Positions 6,656-22,988 of a DNA stretch of 26,171 nucleotides are shown in pieces. Source of the stretch: a virus; IMG/VR virus record IMGVR_UViG_3300019132_000069, positions 1-26,171 of that record; one strand, 5' to 3'. The notes beneath the pieces were generated by a model, which did no database searches, was not told the DNA's origin, and worked only from the letters and a program-made list of their open reading frames with translations. The translations under genes were made by a program, and so were the position numbers. Within the stretch, counting starts at the first letter, position 1, and each line of letters begins with the position of its first letter.

Positions 6656-8287
6656 ATGGGTAAGACCGTCCGTATTGTGGCGATGCTGATCGCATGCGCC
6701 GCCGTTGCTACCTTCCTGTTTGCTCCCGATGCCTTCGCGGCGGTCGGCCCGCAGCCCGTGTCGGGCCATGCCACGTCCTGGCTGTCCGACATGCTTGTGC
6801 AGGCCAGCCCGGCGCTGCTGTCGTTGCGCACCCAGCGCGACGATCTCACCGCCCGCGCCGCTCAAAAGCTCGCCGAGATCAAGGATGACACCTCCCCCGA
6901 GGATGCCGCCCGCATCGAGAAAGAGCACAGCGACCTGCTGCGCGAGCTGGAGCGCGTGAACGGTGAAATCGTCACCCTTGAGCGCGCTGCTCCGCCGGCC
7001 GATGCCGACGCCGCAGTGCGCGCCGAACGTGAGCGCATCGCCACCATCACCGACCTCGGCCGCCGCTCCGGCATGAGCGAGCAGGACATTCAGGCTGCGG
7101 TGACGGGGGGCACGACCCTTGACGTGTTTCGCCAGCGCGCCTTCGACCACATGGCGTCCCAGGCTGAAGCCACCCGCACCTCCGGCATTCGCGGCGGCCA
7201 GGACGAAACCGAGACTCGCCGCATGGCCCTCGGCGAAGCGTTGGGTGCTCGCATCCTCAATGCTGTGGGTGTTCGCACGGATGTGTCGGATGCCGCCCGC
7301 GGCTTTATGGACTTCAGCATCTCCGAGATGGCTGCCGAGGCGATCGGCCACCGTGGCATGATCCGTTCGATTGGCCAGCGCGAAGAGGTGCTGCGCCGCG
7401 CCTTCCACTCAACCTCGGACTTCCCGGCGATCTTCGAGAACGCGCTCAACCGGGTTCTGCAGGCCCGCTACGAAGCGGCCCAGCCGACCTATCGCCGGAT
7501 CGCGCAGCAGCGCACCTTCCGCGACTTCCGCCCGCATAAGGTGGTGCGCGCCGGTGACTTCCCGCAGCTGCAGCGGGTCGGCCAGGGCGGCGAGATCAAG
7601 CACGGCACCTTCGGCGAGAACAAGGAAGAGATCCAGGTGCTCGCCTATGCCGTGCAGTTCGGCATCACCCGCGAGATGATCATCAACGATGATCTCGGCG
7701 CAATCGACCAGGTGATGGGCTCCTACGGCACCACCGTCGCCTACTTCGAGGAGATTACGTTCTACGCCATGAAGAACGCGAACTCCGGTGCCGGTCCGGC
7801 CCTGAAGACCGACAACAAGGCGGTGTTTCACGCGGATCATGGCAATCTTGCCGGCTCTGGCACCGCGATCACGGTGGCCGCGCTCGGTGCCGCCCGGGCG
7901 GCCATGCGCAAGCAGACGAGCCTGGACGGCAAGACCAAGCTCAACATCTCGCCCCGCATCCTCCTGGTCGGTCCGGACAAAGAAACCGAGGCCGAGATCA
8001 TCACGGCATCGGTGACGCCGCAGCAGGCCTCGAACGTCAACCCGTTCTCGGGCAAGTTCCAGGTCGTTGCCTCGGCCGAGATCGCCGGCAACGCGTGGGA
8101 ACTCTACGCGGAGCCGTCGCAGATGCCGGTGTTTCAGTGGGGCTATCTCGAAGGCTACACCGCGCCGCGCGTGCGGATGGACCAGCCCTTCGGCATGCAG
8201 GGCGTCGGCATGTCGGTCGAGCACGACTTCGGCTGCGGTGCGATCGACTTCCGCGGCGCGTACCGCAACCCGGGCGCGGCCTCCTGA
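6656..8287 (+). CDS. Major capsid protein (Mu gpT-like / protease-fusion-type capsid family) with hydrophobic N-terminus
   Basis: 543 residues from ATG 6656, chosen because GGAGA (6643-6647) is well spaced; ATG 6641 in frame is the alternative. The C-terminal ~300 residues form the shell protein: FHSTSDFPAIFENALNRVL (250-268), FGITREMIINDDLGAI, VFHADHGNLAGSGTAI, ISPRILLVGPDKETEAE and a closing FGCGAIDFRGAYRNPGA, all typical of this capsid family. Residues 55-130 are a charged coiled coil, probably the internal scaffolding (delta) domain removed by the upstream protease. The first ~28 residues are odd: a lysine/arginine start, a hydrophobic core (IVAMLIACAAVATFLF) and an APDAFA|A ending, which looks like a signal peptide. 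This should also be cut away in maturation if the delta domain is. The shell identity is certain; the purpose of the leader is unknown. Confidence 0.92.
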   Translation: MGKTVRIVAMLIACAAVATFLFAPDAFAAVGPQPVSGHATSWLSDMLVQASPALLSLRTQRDDLTARAAQKLAEIKDDTSPEDAARIEKEHSDLLRELERVNGEIVTLERAAPPADADAAVRAERERIATITDLGRRSGMSEQDIQAAVTGGTTLDVFRQRAFDHMASQAEATRTSGIRGGQDETETRRMALGEALGARILNAVGVRTDVSDAARGFMDFSISEMAAEAIGHRGMIRSIGQREEVLRRAFHSTSDFPAIFENALNRVLQARYEAAQPTYRRIAQQRTFRDFRPHKVVRAGDFPQLQRVGQGGEIKHGTFGENKEEIQVLAYAVQFGITREMIINDDLGAIDQVMGSYGTTVAYFEEITFYAMKNANSGAGPALKTDNKAVFHADHGNLAGSGTAITVAALGAARAAMRKQTSLDGKTKLNISPRILLVGPDKETEAEIITASVTPQQASNVNPFSGKFQVVASAEIAGNAWELYAEPSQMPVFQWGYLEGYTAPRVRMDQPFGMQGVGMSVEHDFGCGAIDFRGAYRNPGAAS

Positions 8288-10095: not shown

Positions 10096-11637
10096 ATGGT
10101 CGCCTTCAACAACATGCCCGGCGACATCCGGGTGCCCCTGTTCTATGCCGAGGTCAATGCGGGCGTGCCGCCCTATTCGGGTACCTCGCGCCTGGTGTTG
10201 CTCGGTCGCAAGACGGCCGGCGGCTCGGCCACGAGCATGGTCCCGCGCAATCTCGGCTCAGCCGATCCGAACGCCCTGTTCGGCGCGGGCTCCATGCTCG
10301 CCCTGATGGCGGCGGCTGCCCGCTGGCACAATCCTGTCGGCGAGATCTGGGTGCTGCCGGTCGCTGATCCGAGCGGTACGCCCGAGGCGGCCAGCGGCTC
10401 CATTGCCATCACCGGCACGGCGATCGCGTCCGGCACCCTGGTGCGCTACATCGCGGGCGAGCGCGTGCAGGTGACCGTCGCGGCCGGTGATACGGCGACC
10501 GTTGTCGGCGCGGCCCTGGCGGCTGCGGTCGGCAAGGGTTTTACCCGTTACGGCAGGACCCTCGGCCATCCGGTGACCGCGGCCAACAATGCCGGCACCG
10601 TGACGCTCACCGCCCGCCATGCGGGCACGGAGGGCAACAGCATCCGCATCGAGGCCGGCCTCGACGGCGACGAGGTCGATCCCCCTGGGCTCACCGTCGC
10701 CATCGCATCGCCGACACTGACCGGCGGCACCGGCGATGTCGACATGGCCGCAGCGCTCGCCGCTCTCGGCGCCGAGCCGTTCGACTGGATTGCCGGGCCC
10801 TATGCGTCAACGGCGCAGCTCGACGCCGTGCGCGACTTCCTGTCGGATTCGGGGTCCGGCCGCTGGTCGCCGACGGTGGGGCTCGATGGTCATTACCTCA
10901 CCTACCTCGACGGCAATCTCTCGACGCTGACGGCATTCGGATCCGGCCGTAACGACCGCCATGTGACGATCAAGGGCGGACTGAACTCGCCGACTGCGCC
11001 GTGGCAGCATGCAGCGGTCGACGGGGCGATCACCGCGTTCTCGAAGAACCTGGGTCGCTCGATCGCCGAGGCGGTCGAGATCGCCCGGCCGCTGCACACC
11101 CTGGTCAAGCAGGGCGTGCGCCCGCCGAAGGCGAGCGCCGACCAGTGGAAGCTCGCCGACCGCGATGCTCTCTACCGCAACGGCATTGCCGCCGACGTGG
11201 TGCGCGCCGACGGCCAGGTGGCGATCGAGCGCATGGTCACCACGTACCGCACCAACGATTGGGGCCAGTCGGACATCACCTTCCTGGATATCGAAACGCT
11301 GGCGATCGCAGCTTATGTGAAGCGCTACATCAAGACCCGCATCACATCGTTGTATCCGCGGCATGTGCTGAAGGACGAGAACCCGACCAGCCAGCAGGGC
11401 ATCGTCACGCCCAAGCAGCTGCGCGCGGCGATCATCCACGCCTATGGCGAGCTCTACGACGCGGGCCTCGTCGAGAAGCCGGATCTGTTCGCGCAGTATC
11501 TGATCGTCGAGCGGTCGGCCGATCCGAACCGGGTCAACGCCTATCTGCCGATCGACGTGGCCAACCAGTTCCGGGTGTTCGCGGCGAACATCACGATCTT
11601 CCCGGAACTCAACGACCAGATCGCGGCGCTCCAGTAG
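10096..11637 (+). CDS. Contractile tail sheath protein (Mu gpL-like)
   Basis: A 513-residue protein that polymerises around the tail tube and contracts on infection. It matches Mu-type sheath in length and layout. The N-terminal part carries MPGDIRVPLFYAEVNAG and a RLVLLGRKTAGGSA segment. A beta-rich insertion follows (about 95-205, Thr/Ala-rich). The C-terminal core includes LIVERSADPNRVNAYLPIDVANQFRVFAANI near the end. A clear ribosome site (GAGGAGA at 10079-10085) precedes ATG 10096. It is followed by the tube gene, as in all contractile phages. Confidence 0.93.
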   Translation: MVAFNNMPGDIRVPLFYAEVNAGVPPYSGTSRLVLLGRKTAGGSATSMVPRNLGSADPNALFGAGSMLALMAAAARWHNPVGEIWVLPVADPSGTPEAASGSIAITGTAIASGTLVRYIAGERVQVTVAAGDTATVVGAALAAAVGKGFTRYGRTLGHPVTAANNAGTVTLTARHAGTEGNSIRIEAGLDGDEVDPPGLTVAIASPTLTGGTGDVDMAAALAALGAEPFDWIAGPYASTAQLDAVRDFLSDSGSGRWSPTVGLDGHYLTYLDGNLSTLTAFGSGRNDRHVTIKGGLNSPTAPWQHAAVDGAITAFSKNLGRSIAEAVEIARPLHTLVKQGVRPPKASADQWKLADRDALYRNGIAADVVRADGQVAIERMVTTYRTNDWGQSDITFLDIETLAIAAYVKRYIKTRITSLYPRHVLKDENPTSQQGIVTPKQLRAAIIHAYGELYDAGLVEKPDLFAQYLIVERSADPNRVNAYLPIDVANQFRVFAANITIFPELNDQIAALQ

Positions 11638-11683
11638 CGCCGCCCTGATCCTTTCTATCCCGTAACAGCAGGAGAGCCGCGCC

Positions 11684-12049
11684 ATGGATACCAAAGGCGG
11701 TCGCTATTCCATCGACATCAACGGCCGCGTGTTTTCAGGGCGCGGCGAGGCCACCATCAACCCGAGCACGGTGTCGGTGAACGCCGGCGCCAATATGGAC
11801 GGCACGGGCTATCGCACGATCGCGCCGAAGCTGGCCTCACTCGAGCTGACCTTCGATCGCGGCAATGGCTTCAAGTGGGATGCTGCCATGCTGCTCGAGG
11901 AGGTCAATGTCACCTTCGAGGAGGACGATGTCGGCGTCACCCATCTCTTCACCAAAGCGACCTGGGTTGGTGAGGGCGCGGCGATCAACACCGCCACCGG
12001 CGAGGTGACGGGCATCAGCATCCAGACCGACCGCTATCGCGCCGTTTAA
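11684..12049 (+). CDS. Tail tube protein (Mu gpM-like)
   Basis: A 121-residue beta-barrel protein that stacks as rings into the inner tail tube. The start MDTKGGRYSIDINGRVFSG and the later GEATINPSTVSVNAGANMDG and EEVNVTFEEDD segments fit the Mu-type tube family. AGGAGA (11671-11676) is a good ribosome site. The stop TAA (12047-12049) overlaps by three bases the stop of a minus-strand gene, so the two genes are convergent and tail-to-tail. Confidence 0.92.
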   Translation: MDTKGGRYSIDINGRVFSGRGEATINPSTVSVNAGANMDGTGYRTIAPKLASLELTFDRGNGFKWDAAMLLEEVNVTFEEDDVGVTHLFTKATWVGEGAAINTATGEVTGISIQTDRYRAV

Positions 12050-12351
12050 GCTGCCCGCTTTTGCTCGGCGGCTTGTGTCAGTGCCGCCAGCATCTCGCGG
12101 TGCTGGCGGTCGCGCTTGCCATCCCTTGCGATCAGCCCAGCGGTCGCCAGTGCGATCAGCCAGACAACAGCGGTGGCCAGCGGCGCGAAGGGCAGGGCGA
12201 TCAGACCTGCCACCTGCACCAGGAGCAGGATCAGCGCCGCGAACCAGCGCCGCCAGTAAAGCGCTGTTCCCGCCGGCAGCAGGTAGCCGCAGACGAGCAC
12301 GGTGCCGACCAGCGCCGGGATGATCACCTCTGACATCAACAACTCGAACAT
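12046..12351 (-). CDS. Small three-TM membrane protein encoded antisense inside the tail operon
   Basis: 101 residues on the minus strand, from ATG at 12351 down to TAA at 12046-12048. The ribosome site AGGGGG (12356-12361, minus) lies four bases upstream, which favours this start over an in-frame ATG at 12435 that would enter the chaperone gene. The protein has three likely membrane segments, about 9-25, 37-53 and 55-75, and a charged C-terminus (RDGKRDRQHREMLAAL). It fills the whole gap between tube and chaperone genes, where no plausible + frame exists. Hydrophobic-segment order and ribosome site argue for a real gene. Function unknown; superinfection exclusion or another lysogenic conversion role is possible but not shown. 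No convincing promoter was found upstream of it. Confidence 0.68.
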   Translation of the reverse strand: MFELLMSEVIIPALVGTVLVCGYLLPAGTALYWRRWFAALILLLVQVAGLIALPFAPLATAVVWLIALATAGLIARDGKRDRQHREMLAALTQAAEQKRAA

Positions 12352-12361
12352 CGAGCCCCCT

Positions 12362-12676
12362 ATGACAACCAAGATCATTCCGCTCAGCACGCCGATCCAA
12401 GGCCATACTGGACCGATTTCCCAGGTCCTCGTCAAGGAGCCGACCGGGCGCGATTACATGGCCCTCGGCGAACCCTCGATCTGGGCGCGCAACGCCGACG
12501 GCACCTCGTATGTGATCGAACACACCGAGGTGATCGAAAAATACATCGAGCGCTGCCTGGCGGACCCCAAGGACCCGCTGCTGCTGTCCCAGCTCGGCCT
12601 GGCCGATGCCATGAAGGTGAAGGACGCGGTGCTGGATTTTTTCGGGGCCGCCCGCAAGGCGGCATCGCCAACCTGA
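12362..12676 (+). CDS. Tail assembly chaperone, short form (Mu gp41-like)
   Basis: A 104-residue chaperone that holds the tape-measure protein during tail tube assembly. It matches the Mu gp41-like family: KIIPLSTPIQGHTGPISQVL then VKEPTGRDYMALGEPS. I take ATG 12362 (the family start); ATG 12320 and GTG 12302 are in frame but would overlap the minus-strand gene. The ribosome site is weak (CGAG). The short form ends at TGA 12674-12676. A slippery heptamer at 12637-12643 allows -1 frameshifting into the extension described separately. Confidence 0.85.
   Translation: MTTKIIPLSTPIQGHTGPISQVLVKEPTGRDYMALGEPSIWARNADGTSYVIEHTEVIEKYIERCLADPKDPLLLSQLGLADAMKVKDAVLDFFGAARKAASPT
12637..12663 (+). promoter_or_regulatory. 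Programmed -1 frameshift site (slippery heptamer and hairpin)
   Basis: TTTTTTC at 12637-12643 is in the X XXY YYZ register for the chaperone frame (GAT TTT TTC), a canonical -1 slippery heptamer. Three bases later a GC hairpin follows: GCCGCC (12647-12652), loop CGCAA, GGCGGC (12658-12663). Such a hairpin can stimulate frameshifting, though a spacer of three is shorter than the typical 5-9. Confidence 0.75.
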
Positions 12677-12798
12677 TCGAGATTCTCGTGGTCGACCTTC
12701 GCTGGGTCGACGCGGTCGGCGTGGGCGACCTGACCCTGACCGAAATCGATTTCTGGATAGAGCGCGCGGTGGCGCGGAAACTGCTGAAGAGGAAGTGA
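12643..12798 (+). CDS. Frame -1 extension of the tail assembly chaperone (gpG-T-like)
   Basis: After slipping at 12637-12643 the ribosome reads from CGG 12643 through to TGA 12796-12798, adding about 51 residues to give a ~145-residue long form. The new part contains LIEILVVDLRWVDAVGVGDL, then LTEIDFWIERAVARKLLKRK. The ending has the 'L-E-x-x-F-W-x-E-R-A' pattern seen in the second reading frame of contractile-tail chaperones (P2 E' and Mu gp42-like). No ATG opens this frame, and it stops one base before the tape-measure ATG at 12800, exactly the usual layout. It is not expected to be made alone. Confidence 0.72.
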   Translation, partial: RGRPQGGIANLIEILVVDLRWVDAVGVGDLTLTEIDFWIERAVARKLLKRK

Positions 12799-12799
12799 G

Positions 12800-14797
12800 A
12801 TGGCGACGCGGACCATGGAAGCCCGGGCCGTCATCTCGGCGGTGGATCGCACCGGCAGCGTGCTCTCGGGCGTGGCCACCAAGTTCCGGCACCTTGCCGG
12901 CGCGGCGCGCCAGGTCAACGGCACGCTCGGACGTGTCGCAGCCACCTCGCGCGTCGTGGCGGCCGCCCAGACCCAGATCAATGCCGCCACCACCACGACG
13001 GTCGCCTCGGTCGGGCGCTATCTCGCCCCTGCTGCGGTGGCTTACGGTGTTAGTCGTGCCGTTCGCTCCTATGCGGATGTCGAGCGGCGGCTGACCCGCG
13101 TCGGCATCACGGCTGATACCTCGCGCGAGGAAATGCAGGCGGTCCGCAAGGAGGCGCAAGCGCTCGCCGATGAAGTCGCGATGCCGTTCGACAACATCGT
13201 CGGCGGTTTCGAGGCGCTGGCCGCGCAGGGCAAGTCGATGGGCGAGATCCGGCGGCAAATGCCGGCGGTCGCCCGGGCGGCTCAAGCTGCGGGCGCTGAC
13301 GTGAACGACATCGCCAATGCGGCCGGCGCGGTGGGCGATCAGATGCAAATCGCCGGCGACCGCATGCAGGCGGCCTTTGACATCATGATCGAAGGCGGCA
13401 ATGCCGGAAAGTTCGAACTCAAGGACATGGCGCGGTATCTGCCGAGCCTGGCGCCGCTGGCGGCCTCGATCGGCATGGTCGGGGAGGAAGGCCTGCAGCG
13501 TCTCGTTGCGACTGCCCAGGTGGTGCGCAACCAGACCGGCACGGCCTCAGAAGCGGCTACTTCGCTGCAGAACGTCTTCGCCAAAATGGAGGCCAACGAG
13601 ACGGTCAAGCGCTTCGGCGAGTTCGGCGTCGATCTCCCGAAGGCGATGGCCGCGGCGCGCAAGCAGGGCAAGGACCTGCTCTCGGTCTTCATCCAACTGT
13701 CCGACAAGGCGCTGAAAGGCGACCTGTCGAAAATCCCGCAGTTGTTCAGCGACATGGAAGTGCAACGCGGCATGCGTGCTCTGCTGTCGCAGCCCGGCGC
13801 CGTCGACCGTCTGGCGCGGGCGCTCGGCCGGGCCGATGGCGCGACCATGCGGGCCTTGGGCGAGGTGCTGGAGGACAACGAGACCAAGCTCCAGCGTCTG
13901 TCGAATTCCTGGAACAAGTTCGTCACGGAATCGGGCAATGCCGCCACCAATCTGGGAGCCGCCAAGGCGCTCAGCTGGATGGCGGACTCAATGCGAATCC
14001 TCAACGAGGAGATTGATCGCTTCAACGCGGGCCAGCGCACCAATGCCGAGGGCAATCTCAATGTCCTGAAGAATTTCGTGCTGACCGGGCAGGCAGTCGA
14101 TCAACCGGCGGCGTCGTTGGCGGCGGCCCGGGCTAATTTGGTTGATCGGGAGCGTCTTCTCCAGGCCCAAGAGCTGTCACGGCAGGAGGCGGACCGCGCC
14201 CGGGCCCAGCTCCGTAAGTTCGATGAGCTCGATGCTTTGCCACCCGGGTCGCCCCGGCGTGAGTTCGGATTCTCTGCGCGGGCCACCGAGCGGGAGCGCC
14301 TGCACGGGATCATCCGGCGAGCGGAGGAACTCGATGCGAACGCGGGAGCGCTTGATGACCTCAATCTGCGCATCACCGAGACGGTGGCGCTGCAGCGGCG
14401 GTTCGCAGGCCTGCGCATTAACGCTCCGGCAGAGGTGCGGCCGATCACCCCGGGCCTGCTGTCGTTCGGTCCAGGAGGTCCAGTCGGGCAGACCCAGTTC
14501 TGGGACAGCCAGGTGCGGGCTCCATCAGCTCCGGCACCGGTCGCTCCTGCAGGGCCGCCGATGCTCTCCCGGCTGGAGGACGTGCTCGGACCGGGCAAGA
14601 TCGAAGCGGTGGTGACGCAGCCGGTCGATGTGACCGGCAAGGTCGAGGCGGAGGTCACCGGGCAGGCCACCGTCAACGTGCGGGTGCAGGTTGAGGGCGG
14701 CGGTCGTGTCACCGGCATGAGTGCGGAATCGACCGGTAACATCCGTGCCCGTGTCGGCACCTCCATGCCCCAGGTTGTCAACCCGACGGGACGCTAA
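12800..14797 (+). CDS. Tape measure protein (TP901-type)
   Basis: A 665-residue tail-length ruler that fills the tube lumen during assembly. It is largely helical. The N-terminal part, about 90-330, matches the TP901-type tape measure domain: YADVERRLTRVGITADTS, LADEVAMPFDNIVGGFEALA, then PSLAPLAASIGM and a later NETKLQRLSNSWNKFV. Residues 60-85 are moderately hydrophobic and could be a membrane-active segment. The last ~60 residues are a valine-rich beta repeat (VDVTGKVEAEVTGQATVNV) common in Mu-like measures. It follows the chaperone directly, as in almost every long-tailed phage. If the usual ~0.15 nm per residue holds, the tail would be about 100 nm long. Confidence 0.92.
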   Translation: MATRTMEARAVISAVDRTGSVLSGVATKFRHLAGAARQVNGTLGRVAATSRVVAAAQTQINAATTTTVASVGRYLAPAAVAYGVSRAVRSYADVERRLTRVGITADTSREEMQAVRKEAQALADEVAMPFDNIVGGFEALAAQGKSMGEIRRQMPAVARAAQAAGADVNDIANAAGAVGDQMQIAGDRMQAAFDIMIEGGNAGKFELKDMARYLPSLAPLAASIGMVGEEGLQRLVATAQVVRNQTGTASEAATSLQNVFAKMEANETVKRFGEFGVDLPKAMAAARKQGKDLLSVFIQLSDKALKGDLSKIPQLFSDMEVQRGMRALLSQPGAVDRLARALGRADGATMRALGEVLEDNETKLQRLSNSWNKFVTESGNAATNLGAAKALSWMADSMRILNEEIDRFNAGQRTNAEGNLNVLKNFVLTGQAVDQPAASLAAARANLVDRERLLQAQELSRQEADRARAQLRKFDELDALPPGSPRREFGFSARATERERLHGIIRRAEELDANAGALDDLNLRITETVALQRRFAGLRINAPAEVRPITPGLLSFGPGGPVGQTQFWDSQVRAPSAPAPVAPAGPPMLSRLEDVLGPGKIEAVVTQPVDVTGKVEAEVTGQATVNVRVQVEGGGRVTGMSAESTGNIRARVGTSMPQVVNPTGR

Positions 14798-21855: not shown

Positions 21856-22512
21856 ATGGCTGTAGAAAACTTCGGCGAGTCGCTGACGCGCGTCCTTAAA
21901 CATGAAGGGGGCTGGTCAGATCACCCCAAAGACCCAGGCGGAGCGACGAACCGCGGGATCACCCTCGCCACCCTGAGCACCTGGCGGGGCCGGAAGGTGA
22001 CAAAGGCTGAAGTCAAGGCGCTCACAGTTGAAGAGGCTGGGGCCATCTACAGGGCGAATTACTGGAACGTTGTTAAGGGCGATGACCTTCCTGCCGGAGT
22101 CGACTTCGCTGTGTTCGACTTCGCGGTGAATTCGGGCCCTGCTCGAGCAGCGAGGCACCTTCAGGCGTTGGTCGGAACGGCAGCAGACGGCGTGATCGGA
22201 CCCAAAACCCTGGCTGCCGTCAAAGCCAAAGACCCGAAGGATCTCGTCCGAAGTCTTACACGGTCTCGGCTCGATTTTCTCTCTCGCCTCGACACCTGGC
22301 CCATCTTCGGCAAGGGGTGGCGAGCCCGCGTGCTTGATGTGGAGAAAGCGGCCCTTGCCATGGCCGGGGAGGCACCCGCACCTGTGCCGATCCCGCCGCC
22401 ACCTGACATAGAACCTGCCCCGGTTCCCGTTTCCCAGCCCGCCACTTCAGGCGGGTTTTTCTTTGTCACCCTCAAGAACTTCCTTGAGGCTCTGTTCGGA
22501 AGGAAGGCCTGA
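21856..22512 (+). CDS. Endolysin (GH108-type N-acetylmuramidase with PG-binding domain)
   Basis: A 218-residue cell-wall hydrolase that releases progeny phage. The catalytic domain (1-90) carries the family motif LKHEGGWSDHPKDPGGATNRGIT, with catalytic Glu17. A peptidoglycan-binding part follows (95-165, GTAADGVIGPKTLAAV, then RSLTRSRLDFL). There is no N-terminal signal peptide, so it should need a holin. The C-terminus is unusual: a Pro-rich linker (about 175-198) and then GGFFFVTLKNFLEALFGRKA, an amphipathic segment that may touch the membrane. GAAAGA (21843-21848) is the ribosome site. The next gene starts on its stop codon. Confidence 0.93.
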   Translation: MAVENFGESLTRVLKHEGGWSDHPKDPGGATNRGITLATLSTWRGRKVTKAEVKALTVEEAGAIYRANYWNVVKGDDLPAGVDFAVFDFAVNSGPARAARHLQALVGTAADGVIGPKTLAAVKAKDPKDLVRSLTRSRLDFLSRLDTWPIFGKGWRARVLDVEKAALAMAGEAPAPVPIPPPPDIEPAPVPVSQPATSGGFFFVTLKNFLEALFGRKA

Positions 22513-22988
22513 TGCCTCCCATCATCGGATTGTTGCTCCAGTATGCTCCCGATCTGATCGGGGTGTTTGCCGGCGAGAAGGCGGGGCAGGCCATCGGGAA
22601 GGTGGCCGATACTGCGAAAGTCGTGTTCGGGACGGATGACCCGGCCGCCGTGCAGCGTGCGATTACCGTCGATCCGAAGCTGGCCGAGGCTTTCGCCGAG
22701 CAGGCACGTCAGGCACTCGCCTACATGCTCCAGGCGAACCAGGCGCAGTCGGCCCTCGCCCTGGCCGAGGCCGGGAAGAGTTTTTGGCATTCCGGCTGGC
22801 GGCCGGCGCTGTCCTGGCTGCTGATCTTCATGTGGCTCTGGAATGTCTGCGTCGGGTGGTCGGTTCAGGTTCTGTCCGGCATTCCGGTCCCGATCATCCC
22901 GTGGGAACACCTTCTGGGCTTCTCGGGCTTGTGGCTCGCGATCTACGGCGGCGGCCACACCCTCAAGAGCATCATGGGAGGGCGCTAG
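22512..22988 (+). CDS. Holin, GTA-type three-TM family
   Basis: A 158-residue membrane protein that would form the lesion letting the endolysin out. The N-terminus is amphipathic or hydrophobic (MPPIIGLLLQYAPDLIGVFAG). Two strong C-terminal membrane segments follow, about 99-122 (ALSWLLIFMWLWNVCVGWSV) and 131-150 (GFSGLWLAIYGG). This corresponds to the three-TM holin family first seen in the Rhodobacter gene transfer agent. Residues 25-90 are a charged helical part. It begins on the endolysin stop codon (TGATG), behind a strong AAGGAAGG ribosome site. Confidence 0.85.
   Translation: MPPIIGLLLQYAPDLIGVFAGEKAGQAIGKVADTAKVVFGTDDPAAVQRAITVDPKLAEAFAEQARQALAYMLQANQAQSALALAEAGKSFWHSGWRPALSWLLIFMWLWNVCVGWSVQVLSGIPVPIIPWEHLLGFSGLWLAIYGGGHTLKSIMGGR

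Follow-up and report, generated by a model that had tools for sequence, protein, structure and literature searches.

The minus-strand frame at positions 12046-12351 of the window, the whole 26,171-nucleotide stretch of viral DNA analysed here, is by comparison with sister phages a genuine, selected gene. It lies between the tail tube and tail assembly chaperone genes of an alphaproteobacterial, contractile-tailed phage group, in a gap that the related sequences define as a variable accessory slot with exchangeable antisense cargo of exported or membrane type. The gene, cargo gene A, stands about an even chance of being a moron-type cargo expressed from the prophage, most likely for an inner-membrane protein that excludes the genome entry of related phages. 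The features of the locus are as follows:

11684-12049, plus strand: tail tube gene, bounding the slot on the left (PF10618, E=4.7e-16; phrog_185)
12046-12049: 4-nt overlap (TTAA) of the cargo and tube stop codons, with the same -3 offset in L015, L011, L025/L048 and L046
12046-12351, minus strand: cargo gene A, predicted three-helix membrane protein with a Lys/Arg-rich C-terminal tail (ORF, L015 homolog, hydrophobicity, AlphaFold2 helices)
12356-12361, minus strand: AGGGGG ribosome-binding site of cargo gene A (from the sequence)
12362-12676, plus strand: first frame of the tail assembly chaperone, bounding the slot on the right (HMM, conservation in L015, position between tube and tape measure)
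12425-12460, minus strand: speculative promoter region of cargo gene A (TTGACG kept in the window and L015, weak -10)
12800-14797, plus strand: tape measure gene, the allele accompanying cargo A (PF10145, phrog_34270)

Cargo gene A, its stop included in these coordinates, begins with an ATG at 12351, 4 nt from the AGGGGG site, and encodes 101 amino acids. It occupies the whole gap between the tube stop codon (12047-12049) and the chaperone ATG (12362). The preliminary description had reported an antisense frame with this ribosome site, three hydrophobic segments and a charged tail, filling the gap and overlapping the tube stop; ORF listing and Kyte-Doolittle analysis recovered all of these features, and from the coordinates 4 nt are common to both stops. 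An alternative upstream start, TTG at 12435, would give 129 amino acids; the ATG with its ribosome site is preferred. GGGGG is also found 5' of the cargo start in L015, L002 and L014, and most other cargos have purine-rich sites. The chaperone matches its HMM at E=3.9e-38, a value to be read with the window's own membership in mind, since the model was made from sister loci together with the window. Within the chaperone gene, the slippery sequence GGATTTTTTCGGGG (12634-12647) is followed by an overlapping downstream frame that runs to 12798, which likely marks programmed frameshifting in this gene; L002 and L015 have a comparable T run.

Is the frame more than a by-product of base composition? 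Antisense frames are abundant in this GC-rich window, where 163 ORFs of at least 60 amino acids were listed and a 503-residue minus-strand frame (11837-13348) spans the same gap, so the openness of an antisense frame is in itself no evidence. The case for a gene comes from sister loci, found through relatives of the tube protein (PF10618). In L015 (IMG/VR 3300048852_000106, 50 kb), the corresponding gap holds a homolog that is likewise antisense, shares four stop-codon bases with the tube gene and is preceded by GGGGG. The two proteins are 54% identical, ungapped over 101 amino acids, with pN 0.30, pS 0.60 and dN/dS about 0.31. When the same substitutions were placed at random, 0 of 20,000 placements matched the observed identity with the frame open; simulated pairs kept 37 identical residues on average, compared with the 55 actually seen, and just 11% of simulations left the frame open. 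This conservation, selection and simulation together support a real, selected gene. A spurious frame held open by GC bias alone would suit a window so rich in long antisense frames, but it is extremely improbable given the frame kept in L015, the simulations and the conserved antisense genes that other phages hold in the same slot. Stops interrupt all three plus-strand frames of the gap in both the window and L015, in agreement with the earlier remark that no plus-strand frame there is protein-like. The same description had named the lack of a preserved frame in sister prophages as grounds for giving up the gene, and L015 preserves it.

Tube-to-chaperone distance was then measured with the chaperone HMM at 25 distinct loci (the window, L002-L008, L011-L026 and L046; L027, on the same contig as L023, was left out). 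The slot is empty (12-86 nt) in 11 of the 25 loci and filled in 13, while L026 has a 213-nt gap with no clear gene. Less closely related phages, among them Rhizobium phages PPF1 and RR1-A, carry no cargo in the slot. The chaperone-proximal cargo is antisense in 13/13 filled slots and carries a predicted TM or signal segment, called by hydrophobicity or by eye, in 13/13. These cargos form eight families, with between-family similarity no better than weak matches:

cargo A, in the window and L015, antisense: three-TM protein
cargo B, in L011 and L013, antisense: TM hairpin with a UPF0547 zinc ribbon
six families of periplasmic type, 109-171 amino acids, antisense: in L002; L006 and L007; L014; L018 and L020; L023; L046 and L025/L048

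All five two-member families are under purifying selection. Because sister slots are either empty or hold unrelated antisense genes for exported proteins, cargo A is exchangeable and no fixed feature of the tail operon; the preliminary reading was right about a real antisense membrane-protein gene, as its conservation indicates, and its suggestion of superinfection exclusion is plausible. The gene is absent from relatives that keep its neighbors, as is characteristic of a moron, and the slot has the variable content between conserved borders that is typical of hotspots. It differs from hotspots with recognised defence systems in that eight cargo proteins, drawn from seven families, gave no convincing PADLOC match.

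The bigger slots hold extra regulators adjoining the tube gene (Arc-like in L023, HTH in L046) plus plus-strand genes, and that of L025 a TM coiled-coil gene followed by an Arc-like gene. The multi-gene slots of L046 (4363-7918) and L048, a Microvirga zambiensis prophage, measure 3.5-6.2 kb; each has an antisense gene at the tube end (HTH in L046; TM coiled-coil plus Arc-like in L048), plus-strand genes, and at the chaperone end an exported antisense protein common to both. Cargo B (L011, 4369-4725; L013, 4389-4733) is related to the function-unassigned PHROGs 8436 and 9201.

Comparison of close relatives points to two modes of exchange. Window and L002 DNA are 84% identical across a 4-kb stretch whose right-hand end is the tube stop; beyond it, they are unalignable until 14539, the alignment resuming only at the end of the tape measure; the window tape measure is 87% identical to that of L015 (first 400 amino acids) and about 26% identical to that of L002. 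Between the window and L015, the sheath is 72% and the chaperone about 77-78% identical, and the cargo is common to both. The L015 sheath is instead 97% identical to that of L016, whose slot is empty and whose tape measure is different. Cargo, chaperone and tape measure go together in the window and L015 although their sheaths diverge, so cargo A moved with the chaperone/tape-measure block. Cargo has also been swapped alone: L006 and L007 differ from L023 in cargo between flanks (tube, chaperone, tape measure) that are 85-98% identical, and L013 has a cargo where L012, L016 and L017, with chaperone and tape measure of like type, have none. On these alignments, cargo is exchanged either alone or jointly with the chaperone/tape-measure block, and recombination borders lie at the tube stop. 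There, a T preceding the stop codon yields an antisense TAA that serves five cargo genes and may act as a joint for incoming antisense frames.

How tightly is a cargo bound to its tape measure? Cargo A was seen with one chaperone/tape-measure allele only, in 2/2 phages (the window and L015, its single known homolog). Scans for these two alleles returned the L015 contig alone, and the tape-measure allele was absent from 385 class-level genomes. Cargo-chaperone linkage is no rule, since cargo B accompanies two different chaperone types. Cargo A diverges faster than its neighbors (54% identity against 87% for the tape measure, window versus L015).

The cargo A protein has hydrophobic segments at residues 9-27, 37-55 and 56-74 (Kyte-Doolittle windows) and a C-terminal tail rich in Lys and Arg; in the L015 homolog, the third TM segment falls below threshold. 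An AlphaFold2 model from the two sequences places helices at 2-24, 32-52 and 56-100 with low confidence (pLDDT 64, pTM 0.28). A Foldseek search of this model against viral models returned no hit with E under 6.8, and no fold is claimed. No family match was found in Pfam, PHROGs, NCBIfam or PADLOC, known exclusion and defence families included, and no relative beyond L015 in 50,697 phages, 72,556 plasmids, IMG/VR or 782 genomes (397 from one bacterial order and 385 from its class). By these searches, cargo A is a protein family new to all libraries searched. Weak phage matches (MT838970, E=0.09; vsMR; Microbacterium phages) were dropped, as the L015 protein did not reproduce them. Two genome matches were judged to be chance: G324 (E=6.7e-4), within a 1080-residue frame, and G702 (E=2.3e-4), by eye a chromosomal membrane protein adjoining histidine-biosynthesis genes.

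What might such a protein do? The gene's orientation, opposite to the late operon, makes transcription in the prophage most likely, at a time when late genes would be silent; after induction, opposing late transcription would shut it off. A temperate lifestyle is supported by an integrase on the L015 contig; the window contig, a 26-kb fragment, has none. No sigma-70-like promoter or terminator-like site was found in 11400-13000, where the sigma-70 consensus may not be that of the host. For the speculative promoter region at 12425-12460, codon conservation in the overlying chaperone gene was compared: between the window and L015, 23 of 31 codons for identical amino acids are unchanged within its first 40 codons, and 23 of 47 in the later part. 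The protein would sit in the inner membrane with its N-terminus out and its basic tail in. The exported or membrane nature of the cargo, its injection-gene neighbors, antisense orientation, dispensability and fast divergence all suggest an envelope-active protein expressed in the lysogen. Superinfection exclusion is favored for cargo A, at roughly even confidence, because of the link to chaperone and tape measure, the exported nature of all slot cargos and the known precedents that act at the envelope on genome entry. In this mechanism, cargo A would block the entry of related phage genomes via their tape-measure or injection machinery.

Alternatively, the cargo could have another role in the lysogen, as an envelope protein that alters host physiology, stress resistance or surface with no exclusion of phages. 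This is a possible though less probable reading: the slot holds diverse cargo (a UPF0547-type zinc-ribbon protein with a TM segment, several periplasmic proteins, Arc or HTH regulators) and no cargo is a recognised defence gene, whereas adjacency to the tape-measure block, block exchange and fast divergence (54% vs 87%) better fit a conflict between phages.

The crowding of the two divergent starts raises a different possibility, that an antisense transcript over the chaperone start damps leaky tail expression in the lysogen and the protein is secondary. In the window, L015 and L002, 9-13 nt separate the cargo start from that of the chaperone, and the chaperone has no Shine-Dalgarno sequence in any of the three. 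This regulatory role is unlikely, as selection acts on the cargo A protein (dN/dS 0.31), about half of the relatives have no antisense gene at all, and the distance between starts is 20-126 nt in other phages. In the window, the chaperone start region in question is 12352-12362, with the ATG 10 nt from the antisense cargo start.

A small, multi-TM protein with a basic tail also recalls a second holin, an antiholin or another lysis protein, and phrog_9284, a holin PHROG, matched very weakly (E=0.12). A lysis role is nonetheless highly unlikely, since an endolysin gene (21856-22512) and a holin-like gene (22512-22988) are already present on the plus strand of the phage; the cargo is moreover antisense to late transcription and absent or replaced in sisters. 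Holin identity was rejected on the same separate pair of genes and on the missing lysis-cassette context on the late strand.

The preferred reading, exclusion at the inner membrane, has several relatives among described systems. The Z/fun gene of phage P2 lies in reverse orientation. It is an accessory phage-exclusion gene at a horizontal-exchange site between G and the sheath gene FI (PMC3091744) and resembles the slot in being an accessory site between tail genes of a contractile-tailed temperate phage. The site differs (G/FI rather than tube/chaperone), as does the phage group, and with no sequence match in the libraries searched, fun is set beside cargo A by description alone. HK97 gp15, a prophage moron for superinfection exclusion, is a predicted inner-membrane protein, and its specificity has been mapped to the tube and tape-measure genes (PMC10883804). 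Cargo A is likewise moron-encoded and predicted to be in the inner membrane; HK97 is a siphophage and no library match links cargo A to gp15, while cargo A is antisense with an exclusion role that is so far putative. P22 SieA, an inner-membrane protein that like cargo A has three predicted TM segments, blocks DNA injection (PMC10883804), but it has 162-164 amino acids versus 101, belongs to a podophage and lies at another genome place, and the family libraries gave no match to it for cargo A.

Targeting of the tape measure is known from SNIPE, which contacts it at the membrane (PMC13190303), and from Tab, the tail assembly blocker of Pseudomonas phage JBD26, a small prophage-expressed moron of a Mu-like phage with specificity set by the tape measure (PMC10884400). 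Terminase genes flank that of Tab, which acts during virion assembly, whereas cargo A is a predicted membrane protein with no known counter-protein. Tape-measure-contact exclusion is documented in siphophages, whereas the phages bearing the slot have contractile tails. In the antiviral hotspots of P2 and P4 phages, conserved phage genes flank highly variable accessory genes (Rousset 2022; PMC9122126), as conserved borders enclose variable content in the slot. Those hotspots lie near cos or integrase and carry recognisable defence systems, whereas the slot lies within the tail operon and its chaperone-proximal cargos are all predicted to be exported or membrane proteins.

No description of the tube/chaperone slot was found in the open-access papers searched. 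Exclusion genes at variable tail-gene sites and antiviral hotspots in prophages are known precedents, so that cargo A, though its protein family is new and its slot newly described, belongs to a kind already known (P2 Z/fun, HK97 gp15, P22 SieA). A single odd frame thereby becomes a recognisable site, and reading the gap across the phage group yields eight small exported families, most without a known relative, as candidates for superinfection exclusion. More tentatively, and with rather doubtful confidence, the slot may be an arsenal site of prophage-expressed envelope exclusion proteins, set against the tail operon and often exchanged with a matched chaperone/tape-measure block; if so, injection machinery and the gene that excludes rivals would evolve as one module. 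Because sister phages differ independently in cargo and tape measure, they provide natural pairs for tests of tape-measure specificity in contractile-tailed phages. Elsewhere in related phages, Rhizobium phage RR1-A (L030) has an antisense hypothetical gene (7332-7751) between the tape measure and a gpU-like gene, which may mark another site for antisense cargo.
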